Assembly (NCBI RefSeq): GCF_001905595.1
Contig: NZ_LIXI01000002.1
Location: forward strand, 124,001-188,000
DNA: 64,000 bases
Source: Streptomyces sp. CB00316
Lineage (GTDB): Bacteria > Actinomycetota > Actinomycetes > Streptomycetales > Streptomycetaceae
Reading direction: 5' to 3'
The notes under the pieces were generated by a model. It saw nothing but the letters and a program-made list of their open reading frames with translations. It had not been told where the DNA came from and did not search any database. The position numbers and the translations under genes are program-made. Positions 1 to 8,886 of the stretch are shown here, in pieces; position 1 is the first letter of the stretch, and the number at the start of each line of letters is the position of its first letter.

Positions 1-77
1 GACAACGCAGCGACCGTTTCACGTCCACCGATACGGTCTTCCCTGCCATCCTGGGCCTCTTGGAGGAGCAGTCGTGA
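1..77 (+). CDS. C-terminal end of an unidentified protein (partial)
   Basis: An open frame enters from the left edge and stops with TGA at 75-77. That stop overlaps the GTG start of the next gene, so the two are probably translationally coupled. The visible 24 residues end in LGLLEEQS. No family can be assigned from this tail. It is probably the upstream gene of a two-gene unit with the NUDIX protein inside the mobile element. Confidence 0.5.
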   Translation, partial: QRSDRFTSTDTVFPAILGLLEEQS

Positions 78-487
78 CGCAGCAGACCACGGACGAGCGG
101 CCGGGCATCGCCGCCGCCATCGTCGTTCACGAGGGCCGCGTGCTCATGGTCCGCCGCCGGGTGAGCGAGGGGCAGCTCTCCTGGCAGTTCCCCGCCGGGG
201 AGGTCGGGCCCGGCGAGGAACGTGAGGCCGCCGCCGTACGGGAGACCCAGGAAGAGGCAGGGCTGACCGTGGAGGCGGTCAAGCTGCTCGGCGAGCGCGT
301 TCACCCCAAAACGGGCCGCCTCATGTCCTACACCGCCTGCCAGATCCTGGGCGGCACGGCTCACGTCGCCGATACCGAGGAGCTTGCCAAGCTTGCCTGG
401 GTCACCCTCGGCGACATCCCGGAGTACGTGCCGTACGGGCTGTTCGAGCTGGTGCAGGACTACCTCGACGGTGCCTTGTCCGCGTAG
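74..487 (+). CDS. NUDIX hydrolase
   Basis: This 137-residue protein has a complete Nudix box at about residues 42-64: G-x5-E, seven residues, then RETQEEAGL, which fits GX5EX7REUXEEXGU. Such enzymes hydrolyse nucleoside diphosphates linked to another group, using the box to bind divalent metal. The substrate cannot be read from the sequence. The GTG start overlaps the stop of the preceding gene. The gene converges on the relaxase and lies inside the integrated element. NUDIX proteins are known cargo of actinomycete integrative elements; Pif of pSAM2, which blocks transfer between carriers, has a Nudix motif. A Pif-like exclusion role is possible but is inference. Confidence 0.85.
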   Translation: MTQQTTDERPGIAAAIVVHEGRVLMVRRRVSEGQLSWQFPAGEVGPGEEREAAAVRETQEEAGLTVEAVKLLGERVHPKTGRLMSYTACQILGGTAHVADTEELAKLAWVTLGDIPEYVPYGLFELVQDYLDGALSA

Positions 488-589
488 ACCGCTCCGAGCT
501 CCGGCGGGGAACTGCGGGCGAGCACCAAAGCTCCACGACTTACTGGGGCTTGCCTGGATGCAGGGTTCCGTGCCAACGAACGCCCCCCC

Positions 590-2302
590 TCACAGACGTG
601 GACGGTGCTTCTGTTCCGCCGGGACCGCCGACCGTGCGGGCTCAGCCACACCGGCCGACAGTGCAGTCGCGGACAGTCGCATGGTCGTAGTCCTGCGGGC
701 GGCTTCGGCGCGGGGGTTGGGTGCGGGGTTTCGGCTGGTGTGCTGGATGCGGGTGATCAGGACGCGGGCGGGCTGGCGGGCGCTCGTGAGTTCGCGCTGG
801 GCGGCGGCTTCCTTGAGGAGCTGGTGGGGTTTGTGACCGCCTGCTTCGGCGTCGGCGAGGACGGTGGCGAGGGCTGGCCAGGCGGGGTCGGTGAGGATGC
901 GGTCGGCGTGGTCGGGGACGGCGGCCCGGACGTCATGGGCCAGGGTTCGGCTGGCCTGCTGGCTCGGCTGACGGGCGGCGAGGTTGTCGATGACCGGGAC
1001 GAGGGCGTGGTCTGCGGCGTTGTGTAGGTGGTGGAGGGCCTGACGGGCGGCTTCGGCCTGGTGGGCGTGGTTCTTTGCCTCGTGCCAGCGGGCGGCGATG
1101 ATCGTGGCCCAGACGAGGGCGGCGAGCAGGGCGGCGAAGGCGCTGCCGTCGGGGCCGGTGGCGGTGTGGGCGATGTCGCGGGTCGCGCGGCGCAGGGTAT
1201 GGGCGGCCTGGTTCTCAGCGCGGATCTGGGAGCGCTGGGCGCGGGCGAATATCCGTGCTGCGGTTCGCAGTTCGGCTCGGGAATGGTCAGGTGCCTTCTG
1301 TGCGGTGGCCTGGATGAGTTCGCCGAGCGCCGTGATGTGGGCCTGGGCGTGGGTGTCGTCGGTCATGCCTTGGTGGAGGGTGTCGAGGGCGTCGGTGGCC
1401 TGGTGCCAGGGGGTGGTGGGGCGCTGTCGGCGTGCGGTGGGATGTTCTTCCGGTGCGGTGGTTTCCAGACGGGCCTTGAGCTTGGGGAGGGTGAGGTCGG
1501 GGGCGATCCTTCCGCCGGGGTGGAAGATCTGTTTCCCGTCCTTGTTGAGGTCGCCGGGGCGGCCGGCGGCGTAGCCGAGGAGATCTCCGGACGGTCCGCG
1601 GCGGGGTTTGATCGCGATGCCGTCGGCTTCGAGGTAGGCGAGGAGTTCCTCGGCGTTGCTGGCGTGGGGGATGGCGGCGCGGATGCGGTCCTGGAGCCAG
1701 TCACCGCTGGTCTGCTCCCAGCCGAGGCGTTGGGCCTTGTGCATCTCTGCCTGCGTGGGGCGCTTTCCAGCGGTGCGGTCGCCCTTCTTCAGCTGGCGCA
1801 GGCCGTAATCGGTCTCGATCTGGCGGCAGGCGTCGCCGACACGGATACCGCTGCCGTGGAGCTTGGGGCGGCGGCCGTCTTCGCGGACGGTGGTGGCGAG
1901 GATGTGGATGTGGTCGTCCGCGTGGCGGACGGCGATCCACCGGCAGCCGAGGTCATCGCCGGGCGGGGCGATGCCCGCGGCTTCGACGATGCGCTGGGCG
2001 ATGTCGGCCCACTCGGCATCCGAGAGGTGCCGGTCCTCGGGGGCTGCGCGGACTGGGCAGTGCCAGACGTGCTCGGTGATCTTCTTCCCGAACTCGCTTT
2101 TCCGGAGATGCACCGGCTCGTCCAGGTGGTGAGCGAGCTGGGTGAGCGTGGCGTCCGGGTTCCGGCCGGGGTCGGGCATACCGAGCATCGCGAAGCCCGC
2201 GACGATGTGCGGGTCGAGGTGCTCGTCGTGGCGGCCGGGGCCGTAGAGGTAGGCGAGCAGGCCACGGGTGTTGGTACCGGCCGGCTTGATGGCGGCGATC
2301 AC
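590..2302 (-). CDS. Relaxase / mobilization nuclease
   Basis: This is a 570-residue relaxase. The N-terminal domain has the three-histidine metal-binding motif at H127, H131 and H133 (RHADDHIHI), as in HUH relaxases that nick oriT and attach to the 5' end through a tyrosine. Tyr18 and Tyr20 in LLAYLYGPGRHDEH are the candidate nucleophiles. The C-terminal half is Ala/Arg/His-rich, probably helical, and not recognisable as a helicase or primase. Its ATG overlaps the stop of the MobC-like gene by 4 bp, so the pair is translationally coupled and probably forms the relaxosome. The gene makes the surrounding element mobilisable as single-stranded DNA. Confidence 0.9.
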   Translation of the reverse strand: MIAAIKPAGTNTRGLLAYLYGPGRHDEHLDPHIVAGFAMLGMPDPGRNPDATLTQLAHHLDEPVHLRKSEFGKKITEHVWHCPVRAAPEDRHLSDAEWADIAQRIVEAAGIAPPGDDLGCRWIAVRHADDHIHILATTVREDGRRPKLHGSGIRVGDACRQIETDYGLRQLKKGDRTAGKRPTQAEMHKAQRLGWEQTSGDWLQDRIRAAIPHASNAEELLAYLEADGIAIKPRRGPSGDLLGYAAGRPGDLNKDGKQIFHPGGRIAPDLTLPKLKARLETTAPEEHPTARRQRPTTPWHQATDALDTLHQGMTDDTHAQAHITALGELIQATAQKAPDHSRAELRTAARIFARAQRSQIRAENQAAHTLRRATRDIAHTATGPDGSAFAALLAALVWATIIAARWHEAKNHAHQAEAARQALHHLHNAADHALVPVIDNLAARQPSQQASRTLAHDVRAAVPDHADRILTDPAWPALATVLADAEAGGHKPHQLLKEAAAQRELTSARQPARVLITRIQHTSRNPAPNPRAEAARRTTTMRLSATALSAGVAEPARSAVPAEQKHRPRL

Positions 2303-3033
2303 GCGGCCTGCTCCTTCTCCGCCTCGACGGGTTCACACAGGGCCCCGGCGATCAGCTCCAGCAGGTGGTGCAGCTCGTCAAGGCGGTCCCGTACGTCGGG
2401 CGGGGTGAGGTCGCTGTTGAGGGCGCGGGCGATCTGGTTGACGTTGACGCCGATCCGGTTGAGTTCGCGCAGTACCTGGGCGCGGAACATGTGGGTGCGG
2501 CGGCGGTCCTCGGACAGCGGCAGGTTCGCGGTGAACCGGCCGGTGATGAAGGCGAGGGCGATGTCCGCGGTGAAGCCGGATTCCCCTTTGTAGCCGTGCT
2601 CGGCCGCGGCCTCCTGGAGCGCGGCGTGCTCGTCTCCGGTGAAGCGCAGCGGGCCGACACGGACGGTCCGCTTGGTGCCGGTGAAGCGGCGGATCGTCGG
2701 CTGCATGCTCTGCGGTGCTCGTTCGCCGGCCGTCGGTTCGGTGGCGGGTGCGGGGCGAAGGATCTGCTGCTGGGCGGTGTGGAGCTCGTCCTGGTCGGGG
2801 CCGCCCTCGGCCCCGACCTCCCGGCCAAGCGCCTCTTGGCGCTGGGCCGACTCCGCCACCCCCGGGGCGGAGATCCCCGAAGACCGGCCTTGAGTCGGAC
2901 TCGGGGTACTACTGGCTCCGCCCGGGGCCGTCCGCCCAAATACCCGACGTAGACGGGACAGCAGCGTACGAGGCTGTGCCGAGGCGGGCGGCTCAGCGGA
3001 GGTGTCGTCAGGTAGGTGCTGGCTGTGCTGCAT
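2299..3033 (-). CDS. MobC-like relaxosome accessory protein
   Basis: This 244-residue protein has a disordered, Ser/Pro/Gln-rich N-terminal half and a conserved C-terminal domain of MobC/ribbon-helix-helix type. That domain contains LRELNRIGVNVNQIARALN at about residues 188-206. MobC proteins bind oriT and help the relaxase open DNA. The start chosen is ATG at 3033, which has GGAG eight bases upstream; the frame is open to 3105 but with no better site. The stop overlaps the relaxase start (ATGA). The hairpin at 3133-3177 lies just upstream and may be its DNA target. Confidence 0.8.
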   Translation of the reverse strand: MQHSQHLPDDTSAEPPASAQPRTLLSRLRRVFGRTAPGGASSTPSPTQGRSSGISAPGVAESAQRQEALGREVGAEGGPDQDELHTAQQQILRPAPATEPTAGERAPQSMQPTIRRFTGTKRTVRVGPLRFTGDEHAALQEAAAEHGYKGESGFTADIALAFITGRFTANLPLSEDRRRTHMFRAQVLRELNRIGVNVNQIARALNSDLTPPDVRDRLDELHHLLELIAGALCEPVEAEKEQAA

Positions 3034-3132
3034 GGAAGATGCTCCAGATGCGGCTCGGCGGACAGGATCACTGCGACCCGGCGGCGCGAGCCATCGCGTT
3101 GTCACGGGTGTGGGGATCTACGGGGCGACCGG

Positions 3133-3177
3133 CGCGTGCTCGGGTGACCGGAAGGGTTCCGGTCACCCGAGCACGCG
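3133..3177. repeat. Perfect 21-bp inverted repeat with 3-base loop
   Basis: Arms at 3133-3153 and 3157-3177 are exact reverse complements around GGG. The repeat lies after the stop of the DUF2637 gene and about 100 bp upstream of the mobC start. It would form a very stable terminator. Its position directly upstream of a mobC-relaxase pair is also where oriT is often found, so an oriT role cannot be excluded. Confidence 0.8.
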
Positions 3178-3182
3178 AGGCG

Positions 3183-4037
3183 TCAGCCTCCGGAGACCTT
3201 GATGCCAGCGGCTTCGAGTTCCGGCCGGAGCGACTCCATGACTTCGGTCTGCCGGGCGCTTCCGATCGTCAAGTTCCGTTCCTTCACGGCATCTCGCAGC
3301 AGGCCACGCGTGAGTTTGCCGTGCTGGCGACCGGCGGCCCGGCCGATGGCCTTCAGTTCCGCGATGGTCGCCTTCGGAGGACGGCCGCCGACTGGTTTGG
3401 CCTTCGGCACCGGGGACGTGGATTCCGTCCGTTCCTCGCCAGAAGCTTGCGGAACCTCGGCGGCAGCGTCCTGCCATCGACCCTCGCCGTGCTCACCGAC
3501 CGCCCGGTTCCGCACAGCTACGGAGCCGATACCGGATGGGACATCGGTTGGTGCCACATGCTGGTGGATCTGTCGCATCAGCACGCCGAACGCGACCATC
3601 GCGGCGGCCGGAGGGACGGCAGCGACCACGTAGTCGAGGAGCGGAACGCTGCGCTCGCTGTCCGCGCCGCTGACCCCAGCGACGTTCAGTGCAATAGAGC
3701 CGACCGATCCGGCAGCGGTCACGGCGACCGCCCAGAGGTCGGTCGTACGCCGGAGCGCAGCCCGCAGCATGAGCAGTTCACCGGCGACGATGAACGCGTC
3801 CAGGGTGGCGGGCCAGGCCCATCGGCGGATGGGGGATGCGCCCAGCCCGTGCTGGCCTGCGACATCGGCGAGGTGCGCGTAGGACAGCCAGAACGCTCCG
3901 GCTGTCAGAACCACGATGACGATGCCGGCCGCGCCGAGCACGAGCCGCTCTGCGTCGGCACGCTTCGGGCGCTGCCCTTCGGCTGGAACGTCATCTCGTG
4001 TCTGCGGTGATGACGTGGTGAGGTGCGGGGCGGTCAA
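3183..4037 (-). CDS. DUF2637 membrane protein (element-encoded)
   Basis: This 284-residue protein has four likely membrane segments at about residues 32-56, 76-95, 101-121 and 132-154. A charged C-terminal tail carries a helical segment at about 225-275 that resembles a small DNA-binding or oligomerisation region. This matches the DUF2637 family, common in Streptomyces plasmids and integrative elements next to transfer or spread genes. Its molecular job is unknown. The start is TTG at 4037, supported by AAGGAG eight bases upstream. It is read in the same direction as mobC and the relaxase but is separated from them by a strong hairpin. Confidence 0.75.
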   Translation of the reverse strand: MTAPHLTTSSPQTRDDVPAEGQRPKRADAERLVLGAAGIVIVVLTAGAFWLSYAHLADVAGQHGLGASPIRRWAWPATLDAFIVAGELLMLRAALRRTTDLWAVAVTAAGSVGSIALNVAGVSGADSERSVPLLDYVVAAVPPAAAMVAFGVLMRQIHQHVAPTDVPSGIGSVAVRNRAVGEHGEGRWQDAAAEVPQASGEERTESTSPVPKAKPVGGRPPKATIAELKAIGRAAGRQHGKLTRGLLRDAVKERNLTIGSARQTEVMESLRPELEAAGIKVSGG

Positions 4038-4076
4038 GCGGGAATCTCCTTGGGGGTAGTGGGTGAGGGGCGTCTT

Positions 4077-4389
4077 TGCCGTCTTGTGCGTTGCACGTGC
4101 AGGTCAGCGCGGTACGGCAGCGCGCCTGACGTGCCGTCTTGGCGGGAAGCTCTGGCGTCTTGTCCCGACTCGGGACAGGGATGAGGCGGATCCGCCCCGG
4201 CTCGTGTCCGGGCGCCTGCATCCGCTGGGACGGCCGGTCGCGGCAGCCGTCCCAGCGAGCAGGACTGTGACCTGCTGCGATACGGCGAAGACGCCTGGGA
4301 CGGGGCAAGACGGATCTGGACGCCGTGCCCCTGCTGGCTGCACGTGCTCAGGCGCGTGCGCTGCCGTCTTGCCCTCGGCTGCCGTCTTG
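4077..4389. repeat. Iteron-like region, putative replication or control locus
   Basis: The decamer TGCCGTCTTG occurs exactly at 4077, 4132, 4362 and 4380. A one-mismatch copy is at 4153, and a related inverted copy (CCGTCTTGCC on the minus strand) is at 4304-4313. The segment also contains two GCACGTGC palindromes and an exact inverted repeat (4225-4234 with 4246-4255). The whole interval 4038-4456 lacks a convincing gene. Clustered short direct repeats beside an AAA-like ATPase gene are typical of plasmid-type origins, so this is a candidate origin of the excised element. That role is inferred. Confidence 0.55.
4225..4255. repeat. 10-bp inverted repeat inside the iteron-like region
   Basis: CTGGGACGGC at 4225-4234 is matched exactly in reverse complement at 4246-4255, with an 11-base loop. 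It could be a terminator for the DUF3631 gene, which ends at 4457 and reads in this direction, or a structural part of the putative origin. Confidence 0.5.
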
Positions 4390-4456
4390 CTGATGTGGGC
4401 CCTGACCTGCACGATCACGGCAGGGACGGCAAGTACGGCAACCAGGGAGGTGGGGG

Positions 4457-5755
4457 TCAGCTTTCGCCGCGACGAGCGTCGACCGGGTGGACGGTTGGGC
4501 AGTAGCGCCGCCAGGCGTCCAGGAACTTGTTGCGCGTGTAGCCCTTGCGCTGAGTCCGGTCGGCCATGCGCACGTTGCCGGGCCGAATGTCGTAGTCGCG
4601 CAGCATCCCGCTGAGCTCCCGGGAGGTCAGGCCGTAGCGTCCACGCTCTCCCCACGGGGCTTCGGCGTCCGCGTTCAGGTGGTGCAGGAGGTCTTCGGTG
4701 GAGAGGCTGTCCGCCTCCCGCTGCGCGAAGAAGACCCGTCGGATGTCAGCGAGGATGCGCGCCCCACTCGGGTGGTCCTCCTCGGCCGCCACCTCGGCCG
4801 CGACCATCCGTGCGCACGCGATCCGCGCGAGCCGTGGCCAGCGGCCGCCGGCCAGGTCCGCAACGATCACAAGAGGCTCCCAGGTGTCGGCGGCTCGATC
4901 CTCGACCGGCATCTCCGGCTCCAGGCTCGCAGCGTCCTCCAGTAGCGGGAGGGCCCAGGCGCGGATACGGTCGCGCAGTTCGTGCAGAGCGGGGATGTCG
5001 CGTCGCGAGCGGAAGGGTTTGACCTTCTCGCCCTCGGCCCTGCGGCGCATGCGGATGACGACGGATCGATCCATGACGGTGTCCGGCAGGTCTCCGATGC
5101 CCGCGATGGCCGCCATGGCGAAGGTGGCGAACTTGTGCGGGGTGTGGTCGTTGCCAACGACCCGGGTGACGTACCGGCCGCGCTGGTGGCCGGCGTTGAG
5201 GAGGCCGCGTGTCTCCTCGTTCTTCTCCGCGACCTTGGGGCCGAAGATGGTGTCGGCCTCGTCCACCAGCAGCGTCGGCGGCTCCTCCTCGTTGATCGAG
5301 CGGAAGATGGCCGCTGGTGTGGTGTTGATGGTGAGCATCGGCTCGTGGACCGTTTCGGTCAGCACGTCCAGGAGCCGAGACTTCCCGCACCGCTTCGCAG
5401 GTCCCACCACTGCCAGCCGCGGGGCGTGCTGCCAGGCGGGCTGGAGCTGCGTCGCCGCCACCCAGAGGGTGGTCGCGTCCAGCGCCTCGGGAGAGGGCGG
5501 AATCACGAACTGGGCTACCTGGGAGCGCAGTTCGTCCAGCAGATCCGATCCTGGCGTCGGCTCCGCGTCGGGAATGGTCTCCAGCCTCCTTGCCGGGTCC
5601 GCCTCGCTGCCGTCAGCCGGACCATCGTGCATCTCCGCTGTGGCATAGGCGGCCTGGGCCGGACCCAGATGAGCGCCGGGCCGGCCGGGGGTGGCAGTGG
5701 CGGGCCATCCCGCTCGGGCGGGGGTGGAATAGGAGTCGGGATTCTCGGGTTGCAC
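4457..5755 (-). CDS. DUF3631-domain ATPase (candidate replication protein)
   Basis: This 432-residue protein has a P-loop (GPAKRCGKS, about 118-126) and a Walker B motif (TLLVDEAD, about 161-168), followed by a C-terminal region typical of DUF3631. In other actinomycete elements this domain is found fused to, or beside, primase-polymerases, so a helicase/loader role in replicating the excised element is likely. The first 70 residues are low complexity. The start chosen is GTG at 5755, with GAGGAG seven bases upstream; the frame stays open to 6067 but would then overlap the excisionase gene. The iteron-like repeats lie immediately downstream. Confidence 0.75.
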   Translation of the reverse strand: MQPENPDSYSTPARAGWPATATPGRPGAHLGPAQAAYATAEMHDGPADGSEADPARRLETIPDAEPTPGSDLLDELRSQVAQFVIPPSPEALDATTLWVAATQLQPAWQHAPRLAVVGPAKRCGKSRLLDVLTETVHEPMLTINTTPAAIFRSINEEEPPTLLVDEADTIFGPKVAEKNEETRGLLNAGHQRGRYVTRVVGNDHTPHKFATFAMAAIAGIGDLPDTVMDRSVVIRMRRRAEGEKVKPFRSRRDIPALHELRDRIRAWALPLLEDAASLEPEMPVEDRAADTWEPLVIVADLAGGRWPRLARIACARMVAAEVAAEEDHPSGARILADIRRVFFAQREADSLSTEDLLHHLNADAEAPWGERGRYGLTSRELSGMLRDYDIRPGNVRMADRTQRKGYTRNKFLDAWRRYCPTVHPVDARRGES

Positions 5756-5988
5756 TGGGCGGCTCCTCGTCTGGCGGTGTCGGGCTTGCACGCCCTTGCC
5801 GCCGGGTCGGATCTCACGGGATTGCTGGGGAGTCCTGGAGCCTCCGGCGTTGGACCGCCGGAGGCTCTCCCTCTTCTCGCGGGGGTTTCGGTACCGCGAG
5901 CGACCACGGACAGTACGTCCACGCCGTGCCACAGTCCAGCGTTTCTGTGTCAGCTCAGCGCAGAAGTGCCTACGGCGCATCAGGTGCC

Positions 5989-6183
5989 TCATGCGGCCAG
6001 CCCCAGCAAGGCCAACAGGTCTGCGGTCACCACCCGGTAGGCGTTCCCGAGCCTGAGCACCTTGCACGGGTACTGGCCGCGCTTGGCCAGCTCGTAGCCC
6101 TTGCTCCGGCCGAGCCCCAGCGCGCGGTTGCCCGTCTCCAGGTCAACGGCCGCCGGAAGCCCCAGAAGCTCCTCGCGACTCAT
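5989..6183 (-). CDS. Small helix-turn-helix protein, excisionase-type
   Basis: This 64-residue protein begins MSREELLGLP and contains LGLGRSKGYELAKRGQYPCKVLRLG, the winged HTH pattern of MerR/Xis-like excisionases encoded next to integrases in Streptomyces elements. It would bend DNA at the attachment site and direct the integrase to excision, and may also act as a regulator. The start ATG at 6183 has GGAGAGG eight bases upstream. In-frame starts at 6219 (GGAG five bases upstream) and 6246 are also possible. It is transcribed divergently from the XRE regulator. Confidence 0.75.
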   Translation of the reverse strand: MSREELLGLPAAVDLETGNRALGLGRSKGYELAKRGQYPCKVLRLGNAYRVVTADLLALLGLAA

Positions 6184-6304
6184 CCCCTTCGCCTCTCCGG
6201 CGTCTTCGTTCTGGCGCATGCGCACTCCATCCATGACTGAGCCCACGGCGAACGCGGCCTCCGCGCCCGTCTCCAGGTCTTGGAATCAACGCTAAGCGAG
6301 CTAA

Positions 6305-6321
6305 TGTGTCTGTATGACACA
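6305..6321. promoter_or_regulatory. Palindromic candidate operator at the XRE gene start
   Basis: TGTGTC at 6305-6310 and GACACA at 6316-6321 are exact reverse complements with a 5-base spacer. The ATG of the XRE gene (6314) lies inside the spacer. No Shine-Dalgarno sequence precedes it, which suggests a leaderless mRNA with an operator over the transcription start. Autoregulation is inferred. Confidence 0.45.
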
Positions 6322-7015
6322 ACGTCGAAGTCACCATGGATCGAGTAAGGCCGACGACGAGGACGACGTCCCGGAGTGGGTGGACCAGGTCATGGCCACC
6401 GTGGCCGCCGAGGTCCGCAGACGACGAAAGGAACTGGGTTGGAGCGCACAGGACTTGGCCGAAAGATGCGCGGAGATCGACCATCCGATCCCGCGCAACG
6501 TCATCGCCAACATGGAGTCCGGACGCCGCTCCAACCTGCCCTTGGTCGACGTCATGGTGCTGGCCGAGGCGCTGGGCACCCCGCCCATCTGCCTGCTCTA
6601 TCCCGTGGGCTATGTCGATGACGTGCAGCGGCTCCCGCTGCAGGACTCCACTTCCACTCTGGATGCGCTGCGGTGGTTCACCGGAGAGGAGACCGATCTC
6701 GGCGCGGACGACGACATGCTCCGCTACTTCCGAGTCCATCACGCCGCCCAGGAGCAGCTGCGAAGTGCGCGACGCGACGAGGAGTACGCGCGCTACCACG
6801 CCCAGACCGCCCCGAATGCCGACCGGAAGGCCGAGGCCCTCCGCTCCCAGGCCCGTGCCGCCGAGGCGGCCGACGACGCCGAAAACCGCCTGCGCAGAGT
6901 TCGCGCCTTCATCGAGGAAGAGGGCGCCACACCCCCGCACCTGTGGCACGACGTGGTCCACGTAATCGACTCATCCGGGAGCGATCCCGAAACCAGCGAG
7001 GAGAATGATCTTTGA
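6314..7015 (+). CDS. XRE-family transcriptional regulator
   Basis: This 233-residue protein has an XRE-type helix-turn-helix at about residues 31-90 (RRRRKELGWSAQDLAERCAE, then VIANMESGRRSNLPL). A long, charged C-terminal region is probably coiled coil around 150-215. It is the likely control protein of the element, deciding between integrase and excision functions. It lies divergent to the excisionase gene and its TGA overlaps the TTG start of the integrase, so regulator and integrase are co-transcribed and coupled. The start at 6314 is the first ATG and has no visible ribosome site; ATG at 6392 is an alternative. Confidence 0.85.
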   Translation: MTQRRSHHGSSKADDEDDVPEWVDQVMATVAAEVRRRRKELGWSAQDLAERCAEIDHPIPRNVIANMESGRRSNLPLVDVMVLAEALGTPPICLLYPVGYVDDVQRLPLQDSTSTLDALRWFTGEETDLGADDDMLRYFRVHHAAQEQLRSARRDEEYARYHAQTAPNADRKAEALRSQARAAEAADDAENRLRRVRAFIEEEGATPPHLWHDVVHVIDSSGSDPETSEENDL

Positions 7016-8685
7016 AGGGCTCCACCTATCGCCGCTGCTCCTGCCGCGACCCGAAGACCGGCAAGGAACTCGGCGTCTCCTGCCCCAAGCGCAACAGCAG
7101 GAACCACTGCACCTACTCCGTCCGCCAAGAGCTCTCACCCCGCGAGAACGGCAGCCGCCGCTCCTTCGCCCGTGGCGGGTACGCGAGTCTCAAGGCCGCC
7201 CAGGCCGACCTCGACCACGTACGCGCCTTGCTCGGGCTCGCCGACTCGGACGACCCCGAGGGCACCGAACTCATCGCCGAGATGCTGGCCGAGGTCAGCC
7301 GCGAACGGTCACCTCTGCCCGAGGTCGAGGAGACGCGGCGGCGCCTCAACTCCGGTCAGGACCTCATAGGCAGCCTGACCGTCGCCGAATGGCTCGACCG
7401 GTGGTTGGCCGGCAAGCGCATACGCAAGTCCGGCCTCAACCGCTACGAGACCGATATCCGCGTCCATCTGAAGCCGCGCATCGGCAGCCGGCGCCTGGAC
7501 CGGCTGCGCGTCAGCCACCTCAGCGAGATGTTCACCGACATTCACGAGGCGAACACCCAGATCCTGGAGGACAACGCCCAGCGGCGAGCCGCTCTCGACG
7601 AGCTGGCGACGGTGCCGTGGAAGGGCGTCGGGAACCGGGCTCGTCGCAAGGCCATGAAGGCCGCGATCGACGAGATGCCGCCCTTTCGGCGCGCCACCGG
7701 CCCTGCCACGCGGCTGCACGTAAAGGCCACCCTCCGGGCCGCCCTGAACGACGCGATCGGGCAGCAGATCATCACGTTCAACCCGGCCGCCCATGTCGAG
7801 ATCGACCCCGTGCGCAAGCCGAAGGCGCTCGTGTGGACGGACGAGCGGGTCGCCAAGTGGGCGCAGACAGGCGAGAAGCCGTCGCCCGTGATGGTCTGGA
7901 CGCCGGAACAGACCGGTGCCTTCCTCGACTTCGTCGCTGAGGACCGGCTGTACGCGATGTGGCACCTGATCGCGTTCCGCGGCCTCCGCCGTGGCGAGGC
8001 GTGCGGCCAGCCGTGGTCGGAGACGAACCTCGACACCCACTTCCTCACCGTCTCCTCTCAACTCGTCCAGGACGGCTGGGAGGTGGAAGCGTCCGACCCC
8101 AAGACCGACAGCGGCTCCCGCGTGGTCGCCCTCGACGACGACACCGTCGACGTTCTGAAGCACCACCGCGAACGGCAGGAAACGGCCCGCGAAGAATGGG
8201 GCACAGCCTGGGTCGAGACCGGCCACGTCTTCACGCAGGAAGACGGCTCCTGGCTCCACCCCGGCAAGGTGACCGACCTCTTCGAGCGCCTCGTCGCCGC
8301 CTCCGGTCTCCCGCCGATCCGCCTGCACGATCTGCGCCACGGCGCGGCCACCCTCATGCTCGCCGCCGACATCGACATCAAGATCGTGTCGGACACCCTT
8401 GGGCACAGCGACACCCGCATAACGCGGGACATCTACCAGAGCGTCCTCCCCCACGTCGGCAAGAGCGCCGCCGAGGCCACCGCGAAGCTCGTCCCCCTCC
8501 AGCGCAAGGCCGAGGCCGAGAAGGCCGCGCGCAAGGCCGCGAAGAAGGAGAAGGCCAGGAAGGCTGCGGCCAAGGCGGCCGACGTCGGCAAGGGCAGCAA
8601 GGGCGGCGGCAAGCCGAAGAGGGACAAGGCGAAAGCCCAGGCCAAGGCAGCCAAGAAGGCAACACGCCGCAAGCCCACAAAGTAG
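7012..8685 (+). CDS. int: Site-specific tyrosine integrase
   Basis: This 557-residue tyrosine recombinase has its catalytic residues in place: Arg326 in GLRRGEA, Lys364, His439 and Arg442 in LHDLRHG, His465 in LGHSD, and Tyr475 in IYQSV. The N-terminal region contains four cysteines (9, 11, 24, 33), then an arm-binding domain. The last 70 residues are a Lys/Ala-rich tail of the kind that binds DNA nonspecifically. It would integrate and excise the element at tRNA-Thr, which lies 130 bp downstream. The start is TTG at 7012, overlapping the XRE stop, with GAGGAG upstream. Confidence 0.95.
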   Translation: MKGSTYRRCSCRDPKTGKELGVSCPKRNSRNHCTYSVRQELSPRENGSRRSFARGGYASLKAAQADLDHVRALLGLADSDDPEGTELIAEMLAEVSRERSPLPEVEETRRRLNSGQDLIGSLTVAEWLDRWLAGKRIRKSGLNRYETDIRVHLKPRIGSRRLDRLRVSHLSEMFTDIHEANTQILEDNAQRRAALDELATVPWKGVGNRARRKAMKAAIDEMPPFRRATGPATRLHVKATLRAALNDAIGQQIITFNPAAHVEIDPVRKPKALVWTDERVAKWAQTGEKPSPVMVWTPEQTGAFLDFVAEDRLYAMWHLIAFRGLRRGEACGQPWSETNLDTHFLTVSSQLVQDGWEVEASDPKTDSGSRVVALDDDTVDVLKHHRERQETAREEWGTAWVETGHVFTQEDGSWLHPGKVTDLFERLVAASGLPPIRLHDLRHGAATLMLAADIDIKIVSDTLGHSDTRITRDIYQSVLPHVGKSAAEATAKLVPLQRKAEAEKAARKAAKKEKARKAAAKAADVGKGSKGGGKPKRDKAKAQAKAAKKATRRKPTK

Positions 8686-8773
8686 GTCCCGAGCGGCTCC
8701 GCTCACGCACCGCTCACGCAAGCAACATCACGGCAACCCGGCCGTGTGACCCGCCATGCCCCGAGCAACAGAA

Positions 8774-8806
8774 AACCCCAGGTCACGGGCTATGTGACCT
8801 GGGGTT
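8774..8806. terminator. Hairpin terminator between integrase and tRNA-Thr
   Basis: Arms 8774-8786 and 8794-8806 are exact 13-bp complements around a 7-base loop. On the minus strand the hairpin is followed by TTTTC, so it can end the tRNA transcript as well as integrase transcripts. It lies on the element side of the tRNA 3' end. Confidence 0.8.
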
Positions 8807-8813
8807 CTTCTGA

Positions 8814-8886
8814 GCCGCCTTCGGGATTCGAACCCGAGACCTACGCATTACGAGTGCGTTGCTCTGGCCAACTGAGCTAAGGCGGC
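8814..8886 (-). tRNA. tRNA-Thr (anticodon CGT)
   Basis: The minus strand folds as a standard 73-nt cloverleaf. The acceptor GCCGCCT pairs with AGGCGGC, there is a D arm with GCTC/GAGC, and the anticodon loop is CTCGTAA with anticodon CGT. The T arm is TCGGG-TTCGAAT-CCCGA. CCA is not encoded. The 3' end faces the integrase, as expected for an attachment site, and the gene is intact on this side. Confidence 0.97.

Follow-up and report, generated by a model that had tools for sequence, protein, structure and literature searches.

Among the described replication systems of actinomycete integrative elements, the closest is that of pMEA300. The accessible text of PMC3218068 names the PF12307/DUF3631 family RepAM, the replication initiator of pMEA300, and repeats a prediction of rolling-circle initiation by this protein, with nick sites like those of pC194. 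A second point of reference is the repAB locus of the Streptomyces plasmid pWTY27, for which the accessible part of the report describes a ~300-bp non-coding array of 7-8-bp direct and inverted repeats, footprinting of RepA on this array and bidirectional replication (PMC3583192). A mapped origin for RepAM was not found in the literature that we searched.

Here we analyzed a 64,000-nucleotide stretch of Streptomyces sp. CB00316 (hereafter the window), in which a DUF3631 gene is followed by a segment rich in short repeats (4038-4456). The initial annotation of this DNA had read the segment as a candidate origin with iteron-like repeats, carried by an integrated element, and possibly as an undescribed type of replicon. 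The first part of this reading stands, with the array being conserved beside DUF3631 genes. The second does not: DUF3631 is RepAM, a family already named from pMEA300 in the available text of PMC3218068, and the replicon class is therefore not unknown. We consider it probable that the segment represents the RepAM-dependent replication origin (oriV) of the excised, circular element.

The host element and its RepAM protein

An element of 24,216 bp is integrated at tRNA-Thr(CGT), and positions 1-8854 of the window cover its right part. The ends of the element are an 85-bp exact direct repeat (contig positions 108554-108638 and 132770-132854). The right copy (window 8770-8854) covers part of tRNA-Thr(CGT); its left counterpart is found beyond the window, at a distance of 24,216 bp. 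Between the right end and the array, the element encodes a tyrosine integrase (7012-8685, plus strand; PF00589, E=3.3e-17), an HTH regulator (6314-7015, plus strand; PF13560/PF01381), a small protein without a Pfam match (5989-6246, minus strand) and RepAM (4457-5755, minus strand). The small protein occupies a position suggestive of an excisionase and lies beside repAM in most related elements examined. The first gene past the array encodes a DUF2637 protein (3183-4037; PF10935), and a MobC-like mobilisation protein (2299-3105; PF05713) and a MobA/VirD2-like relaxase (590-2302; PF03432) are encoded beyond it, all three on the minus strand. Matches to the FtsK domain (PF01580) within the same genome all lay outside the element (C12:108554-132854), and two FtsK queries gave no match in L061/L279. 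By the FtsK criterion the element is thus not an AICE; with its integrase, 85-bp attachment repeats and relaxase it looks like a mobilizable element. FtsK clt repeats were ruled out as the identity of the array because the element has no FtsK domain.

Restriction-modification/defence cargo is present in the left part of the element (G000:C12:108000-124500, L279), with genes for a restriction endonuclease of the NaeI type (PF09126, E=9e-116), a C5 cytosine methylase, an SNF2-like helicase, an HD protein and a NUDIX protein. A further NUDIX gene is present in the window at 74-487. The same genome harbors a second RepAM element (L080, G000:C23:265000-284000) whose iterons differ (ACTCGTCCC). Its integrase falls into two adjacent matches and may thus be broken.

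The product of the DUF3631 gene (432 aa from the GTG at 5755, in an open frame that extends to 6067) matched PF12307 with E=6.9e-75 and 251.7 bits against a curated cut-off of 24, which identifies it as a member of the RepAM family. It comprises an AAA+ ATPase part and a C-terminal domain in an AlphaFold model of moderate confidence (pLDDT 74). The best structural matches, which concern the ATPase part of this model, were MCM AAA+ helicases (Z 14.0, rmsd 6.2 Å over 267 residues; best Foldseek E 3e-6, Z re-scored from Foldseek's own list). The predicted structure resembles AAA+ replicative helicases, with the reservation that a shared fold is no proof of function. The model of the C-terminal domain (pLDDT 80) ends in the order helix-strand-helix-helix-strand-strand-helix, and winged helix is our suggestion for naming this predicted fold; a Foldseek search of the domain against the PDB gave no significant match (best E 0.24). 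A profile search of solved structures returned a single match, a bacterioferritin (E 0.028), which was judged to be due to chance.

RepAM/DUF3631 relatives are widespread, with matches in 158 of 295 genomes sampled from the genus. Outside the actinomycetes, where it was unexpected, a protein resembling RepAM (41% over 87% of the query) is encoded at PV029746.1:31485-32564, in a record named Pseudomonas phage.

The repeat array 3' of repAM

Four exact decamers, one near copy, one inverted copy and an inverted repeat had initially been described in a gene-free segment of 313 bp 3' of the DUF3631 gene. We recovered all of them. The decamer TGCCGTCTTG occurs exactly at 4077, 4132, 4362 and 4380 when read on the plus strand, a number reached in none of 100 dinucleotide shuffles of the window (mean 0.13, largest 2). 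The near copy TGGCGTCTTG starts at 4153, the inverted copy CAAGACGG(AT) at 4306 with 8/10 bases matching, and the inverted repeat forms a stem at 4223-4257 (DNA fold z = -4.6, 0/200 shuffles as good). The segment from 4077 to 4389 measures 313 bp and lies 3' of the gene, whose stop is at 4457-4459 on the minus strand. Mechanical ORFs overlap the segment.

While these copies are present, the array had been undercounted. The decamer represents one form of a longer motif, CCRRGACGGCAA, that occurs in both orientations. To score this motif, we trained a matrix on 69 loci of the same RepAM clade (clade 1, defined below; the window, L075, L079, L204 and L206 were left out of 74). At a threshold of 8 bits, the matrix detected 11 sites in 4038-4456, where 0.32 would be expected given the remainder of the window. 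Seven sites reached at least 12 bits, compared to 11 such sites in the other 63.6 kb and to at most one in 200 shuffles of the segment. The initial annotation had also missed an octamer, GCAGGTCA/TGACCTGC, which has three copies in the segment (4099, 4268, 4403) and three elsewhere in the window.

Reading away from repAM, two overlapping iteron-like sites at 4421-4441 (plus strand; 15.4 and 15.3 bits, identity to the window 0.95 and 0.85) form one flank of the first octamer (4403-4410, minus strand), which lies 46 bp 3' of the repAM stop and has an identity of 1.00 among 31 aligned loci. There follow two iterons on the minus strand at 4379-4390 and 4361-4372 (each 15.4 bits; decamers at 4380 and 4362), an iteron in the opposite orientation at 4305-4316 corresponding to the inverted copy (plus strand; 13.0 bits, identity 0.91), a weak iteron-like site at 4277-4288 (plus strand; 9.0 bits) and the second octamer (4268-4275, minus strand; identity 0.96, 31 loci). 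The stem at 4223-4257 consists of a perfect inverted repeat of 12 bp whose arms, GGGACGGC/GCCGTCCC, are iteron-like; the arm at 4244-4255 scores 10.0 bits. Further on lie the near-copy iteron, which is the least conserved site (4152-4163, minus strand; 10.6 bits, identity 0.46), the iteron with the decamer at 4132 (4131-4142, minus strand; 16.9 bits), an iteron-like site GCGGTACGGCAG (4109-4120, plus strand; 11.2 bits, identity 0.94), the third octamer in opposite orientation (4099-4106, plus strand; identity 0.99, 31 loci) and the iteron with the decamer at 4077 (4076-4087, minus strand; 16.7 bits). A tRNA-Thr called by ARAGORN at 4170-4256 was judged false, as it was not reported by Rfam and is absent from locus L062, whose array is 90% identical.

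With 11 sites, the segment has one of the features of an iteron origin, namely several copies of one short site beside a rep gene. An A+T-rich stretch was absent from the segment (30% A+T, compared to 29% in the window), and a DnaA box was absent at up to one mismatch, with one found at two. Not every iteron origin requires both an A+T-rich unwinding element and a DnaA box.

The initial annotation had named a lack of conservation next to DUF3631 genes as one outcome that would refute it, and the array is in fact conserved beside repAM in related elements. A search with the DNA of the segment gave some match in 60 of 295 genomes, many of them short and weak. In an alignment built from 33 loci, identity to the window among 31 of them (omitting L017 and L030) was 0.98 for octamers and 0.82 for iterons compared to 0.53 for other array positions. 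When the site mask was shifted circularly, none of 394 shifts reached this contrast. The octamer is the most conserved part of the segment. Within 440 bp 3' of repAM, the 33 loci contained 117 copies of CCGTCTTG (0.9 in shuffles) and 83 copies of TGACCTGC (0.5 in shuffles). The neighboring modules vary among the elements, including the tRNA used for integration (Thr, Lys, Arg), the type of relaxase and DUF2637. Circular RepAM plasmids of 13.5 and 14.3 kb exist and carry repeat arrays 3' of repAM; a search of a plasmid collection with the DNA of the array itself gave no match.

Outside the genus, 15 of the 18 readable loci of a class-wide sample had no repeat 3' of repAM above shuffles, and arrays are present in named loci of related genera, e.g. 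in Kitasatospora (L195) and Actinacidiphila (L214). Within clade 1, the motif is absent from L204 and L206. Several loci were interrupted or split: an insertion of ~2 kb interrupts the array in L075 (G058), another of ~2 kb separates the array from DUF2637 in L063 (G290), and the element of L079 is distributed over two contigs, its array being at the end of the one that lacks L079. In genome G041 the array and the relaxase are on one contig and repAM on another (L275/L276), reflecting either an assembly break or a rearrangement. L274 (G080:C1:3961000-3977000) is a decayed element with an integrase fragment and an array remnant and no RepAM match.

Octamer, repeat spelling and competing readings

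We collected 212 RepAM loci, of which 197 were distinct and 190 were used; seven were dropped due to short domains or short downstream sequence, and loci L001-L060 entered only the 33-locus alignment. Clades were defined as clusters of the C-terminal domain (residues 316-422 of the window protein) and repeats were read in the 420 bp following repAM. Omitting nine loci of small clades, 181 loci were inspected for the octamer. GCAGGTCA was found exactly at -20 to +160 of the repAM stop in 149 of them, compared to 0.022 expected per locus. The proportion was 67/74 in clade 1 (the clade of the window), 32/43 in clade 8, 11/12 in clade 7, 27/29 in clade 5, 7/11 in clade 10, 3/3 in clade 6, 1/1 in clade 9 and 1/8 in clade 2. 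Among the 154 loci of the six clades that have the octamer, repeats located up to 60 bp from it were mirrored, those on the left being in reverse (258/260) and those on the right in forward orientation (249/261). In addition, a 7-bp inverted repeat spans the octamer in 141 of 150 cases at repAM, compared to 85 of 277 elsewhere. We propose that the octamer at 4403-4410, whose position is kept in most RepAM elements, is the initiation core.

One variant of the origin reading holds that the segment is a rolling-circle double-strand origin, with RepAM nicking at or near the octamer. This agrees with the prediction of pC194-like nick sites for RepAM repeated in the accessible text of PMC3218068, and in clades 5 and 8 the octamer is flanked by G+C-rich arms whose complementarity would allow a hairpin. 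Against it, no HUH motif was conserved among 46 RepAM sequences (best column 1/46), which share a single conserved tyrosine, Y418, and the RepAM model is AAA+ helicase-like. Moreover, the fold around the octamer of the window is only mildly stable (z -2.0, 6/200 shuffles as good). We regard rolling-circle initiation as unlikely, its odds overlapping with those of the origin reading as a whole. On the separate question of how an origin at this site would be activated, we favor initiation by unwinding rather than by nicking.

We found that the spelling of the repeats follows the C-terminal clade of RepAM and not the relaxase. The commonest triplet after GACG was GCA in 69 of 74 clade-1 loci, AGT or GGT in 41 of 43 clade-8 loci and GGT or AGT in all 12 clade-7 loci; in clade 5 it was GAT, leading in only 16 of 29. 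The clade thresholds and triplet classes behind these counts were chosen after the repeats had been seen. Clade 10, which comprises FtsK/primase-polymerase elements, has a GTAGCGGA-type repeat instead, with GTAGC occurring 7.0 times per locus. The ATPase parts of clades 1, 8, 7 and 5 form one cluster at the threshold used, except for two of the 74 clade-1 loci, and the spelling thus separates with the C-terminus. For several clade-7 and clade-8 arrays, single 8-mers did not exceed mononucleotide shuffles (e.g. 3 versus 7 in L085, 2 versus 5 in L087); for these loci the argument relies on the motif in pooled form and on the mirrored arrangement. In four clade-5 loci (L130, L135, L248, L249), another repeat, CGGTCCCC, is present upstream of repAM in 9-15 copies and could be their origin.

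The natural chimera L083 combines an ATPase part closer to clade 8 (81% identity) than to clade 1 (70% at best) with a C-terminal part that is 86% identical to clade 1, and its repeats are of the clade-1 type. L086 shows the reciprocal mismatch and is a weaker case, and L211, a third mismatch, has no clear repeat. As the array touches the 3' end of repAM, inheritance by physical linkage alone could create the link between C-terminus and motif, L083 included. The copies within an array share their spelling on both strands and change it together, which fits sites in double-stranded DNA and argues for recognition by a protein, without proving which one. Contrary to expectation, clade-separating residues were not concentrated in the helix/wing 375-410 (mean MI 0.58 versus 0.61). 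Co-resident RepAM elements belonged to the same clade in 6 of 25 pairs among 17 genomes, where 32% was expected, and thus gave no clear sign of incompatibility.

Iterons are control sites in many plasmids. The array might therefore consist of RepAM sites for copy control, autoregulation or partition, with initiation taking place elsewhere, e.g. inside or upstream of repAM. The pMEA300 origin is reportedly placed within or near repAM, and some clade-5 elements carry another array upstream of the gene. Yet no 8-mer had more than three copies upstream of repAM in 42 profiled loci, and control alone would not need an invariant octamer in a mirrored layout, which makes a pure control function quite improbable.

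The element encodes a relaxase and a MobC-like protein, and TGACCTGC resembles T..CCTGC, the nick consensus of VirD2/RP4-type relaxases. The segment could accordingly be read as an oriT, in which the MobA/VirD2-like relaxase would nick at GCAGGTCA/TGACCTGC and the repeats would be MobC or relaxase sites. However, the co-occurrence and co-variation with the relaxase that an oriT should display were not found, and the repeats track RepAM. Scoring the motif as present at three or more sites, we found it in 50 of 52 clade-1 loci with a window-type relaxase, in 16 of 16 with another relaxase and in 4 of 6 with none seen. Only three loci (L084, L144, L226) pair a window-type relaxase (at least 63% identity) with another RepAM clade, and all three have the motif of that clade. 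In clade 10, an exact octamer is present in 7 of 11 loci, and neither of the two relaxase queries had a match in this clade; five of the 11 matched FtsK, and those without an FtsK match are mostly short stretches. The complete plasmid L082 has the octamer and mirrored repeats without an annotated relaxase, and in L070 the array is present with neither relaxase nor MobC detectable; plasmid L081 has repeats and no close octamer. The presence of the octamer and its mirrored layout in FtsK-type elements without a detected relaxase renders an oriT very unlikely. Hardly credible is an operator or promoter of the DUF2637-mobC-relaxase genes bound by a regulator of the element, for although the array lies directly upstream of these genes and downstream of repAM, it sits between repAM and an HTH gene plus integrase in L081 and L082, is ~2 kb away from DUF2637 in L063 and has a motif that tracks RepAM.

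A proposed two-part origin

For the RepAM-dependent origin that we prefer, the following course of events can be proposed. RepAM molecules would bind the iterons CCRRGACGGCAA via their C-terminal domain. As the iterons are mirror-symmetric around the octamer GCAGGTCA, two RepAM assemblies would flank it, one on each side. The AAA+ ATPase would then open or enter the DNA at the octamer, the word that remains constant while the iterons change and hence the putative start point, and this opening may give rise to a replicating circular form after excision. Taken further, the layout might represent a two-part origin code, in which the universal octamer marks the start and the mirrored iterons are a swappable address for a swappable C-terminal domain. 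We put this forward tentatively, with the odds somewhat against it. If true, an MCM-like AAA+ initiator-helicase would gain a new replicon specificity by swapping its domain and the array together. The core and the binding sites predicted here, together with the natural chimera, render origin recognition by a bacterial MCM-like initiator directly testable and could be of use in new Streptomyces vectors.

The element shares its initiator family, an integrase and integration at a tRNA gene with the pMEA300-type RepAM replicons of actinomycete integrative elements, as far as the accessible text on these goes, and differs from them by having a relaxase and no FtsK/Tra. The two-part layout is not described for RepAM in the available portion of PMC3218068, and it may have been described in part in the literature on the pMEA300 replicon. 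The pWTY27 locus likewise has a ~300-bp non-coding repeat array beside its rep genes. Its repeat is GTGGGAAC, and its RepA is described as hypothetical and its RepB as primase/polymerase in the accessible part of PMC3583192. General iteron-type theta origins resemble the locus in having multiple short sites beside a rep gene. They differ from the array of the window, in which we saw neither an A+T-rich stretch nor a DnaA box and in which the iterons are mirrored around a fixed octamer.
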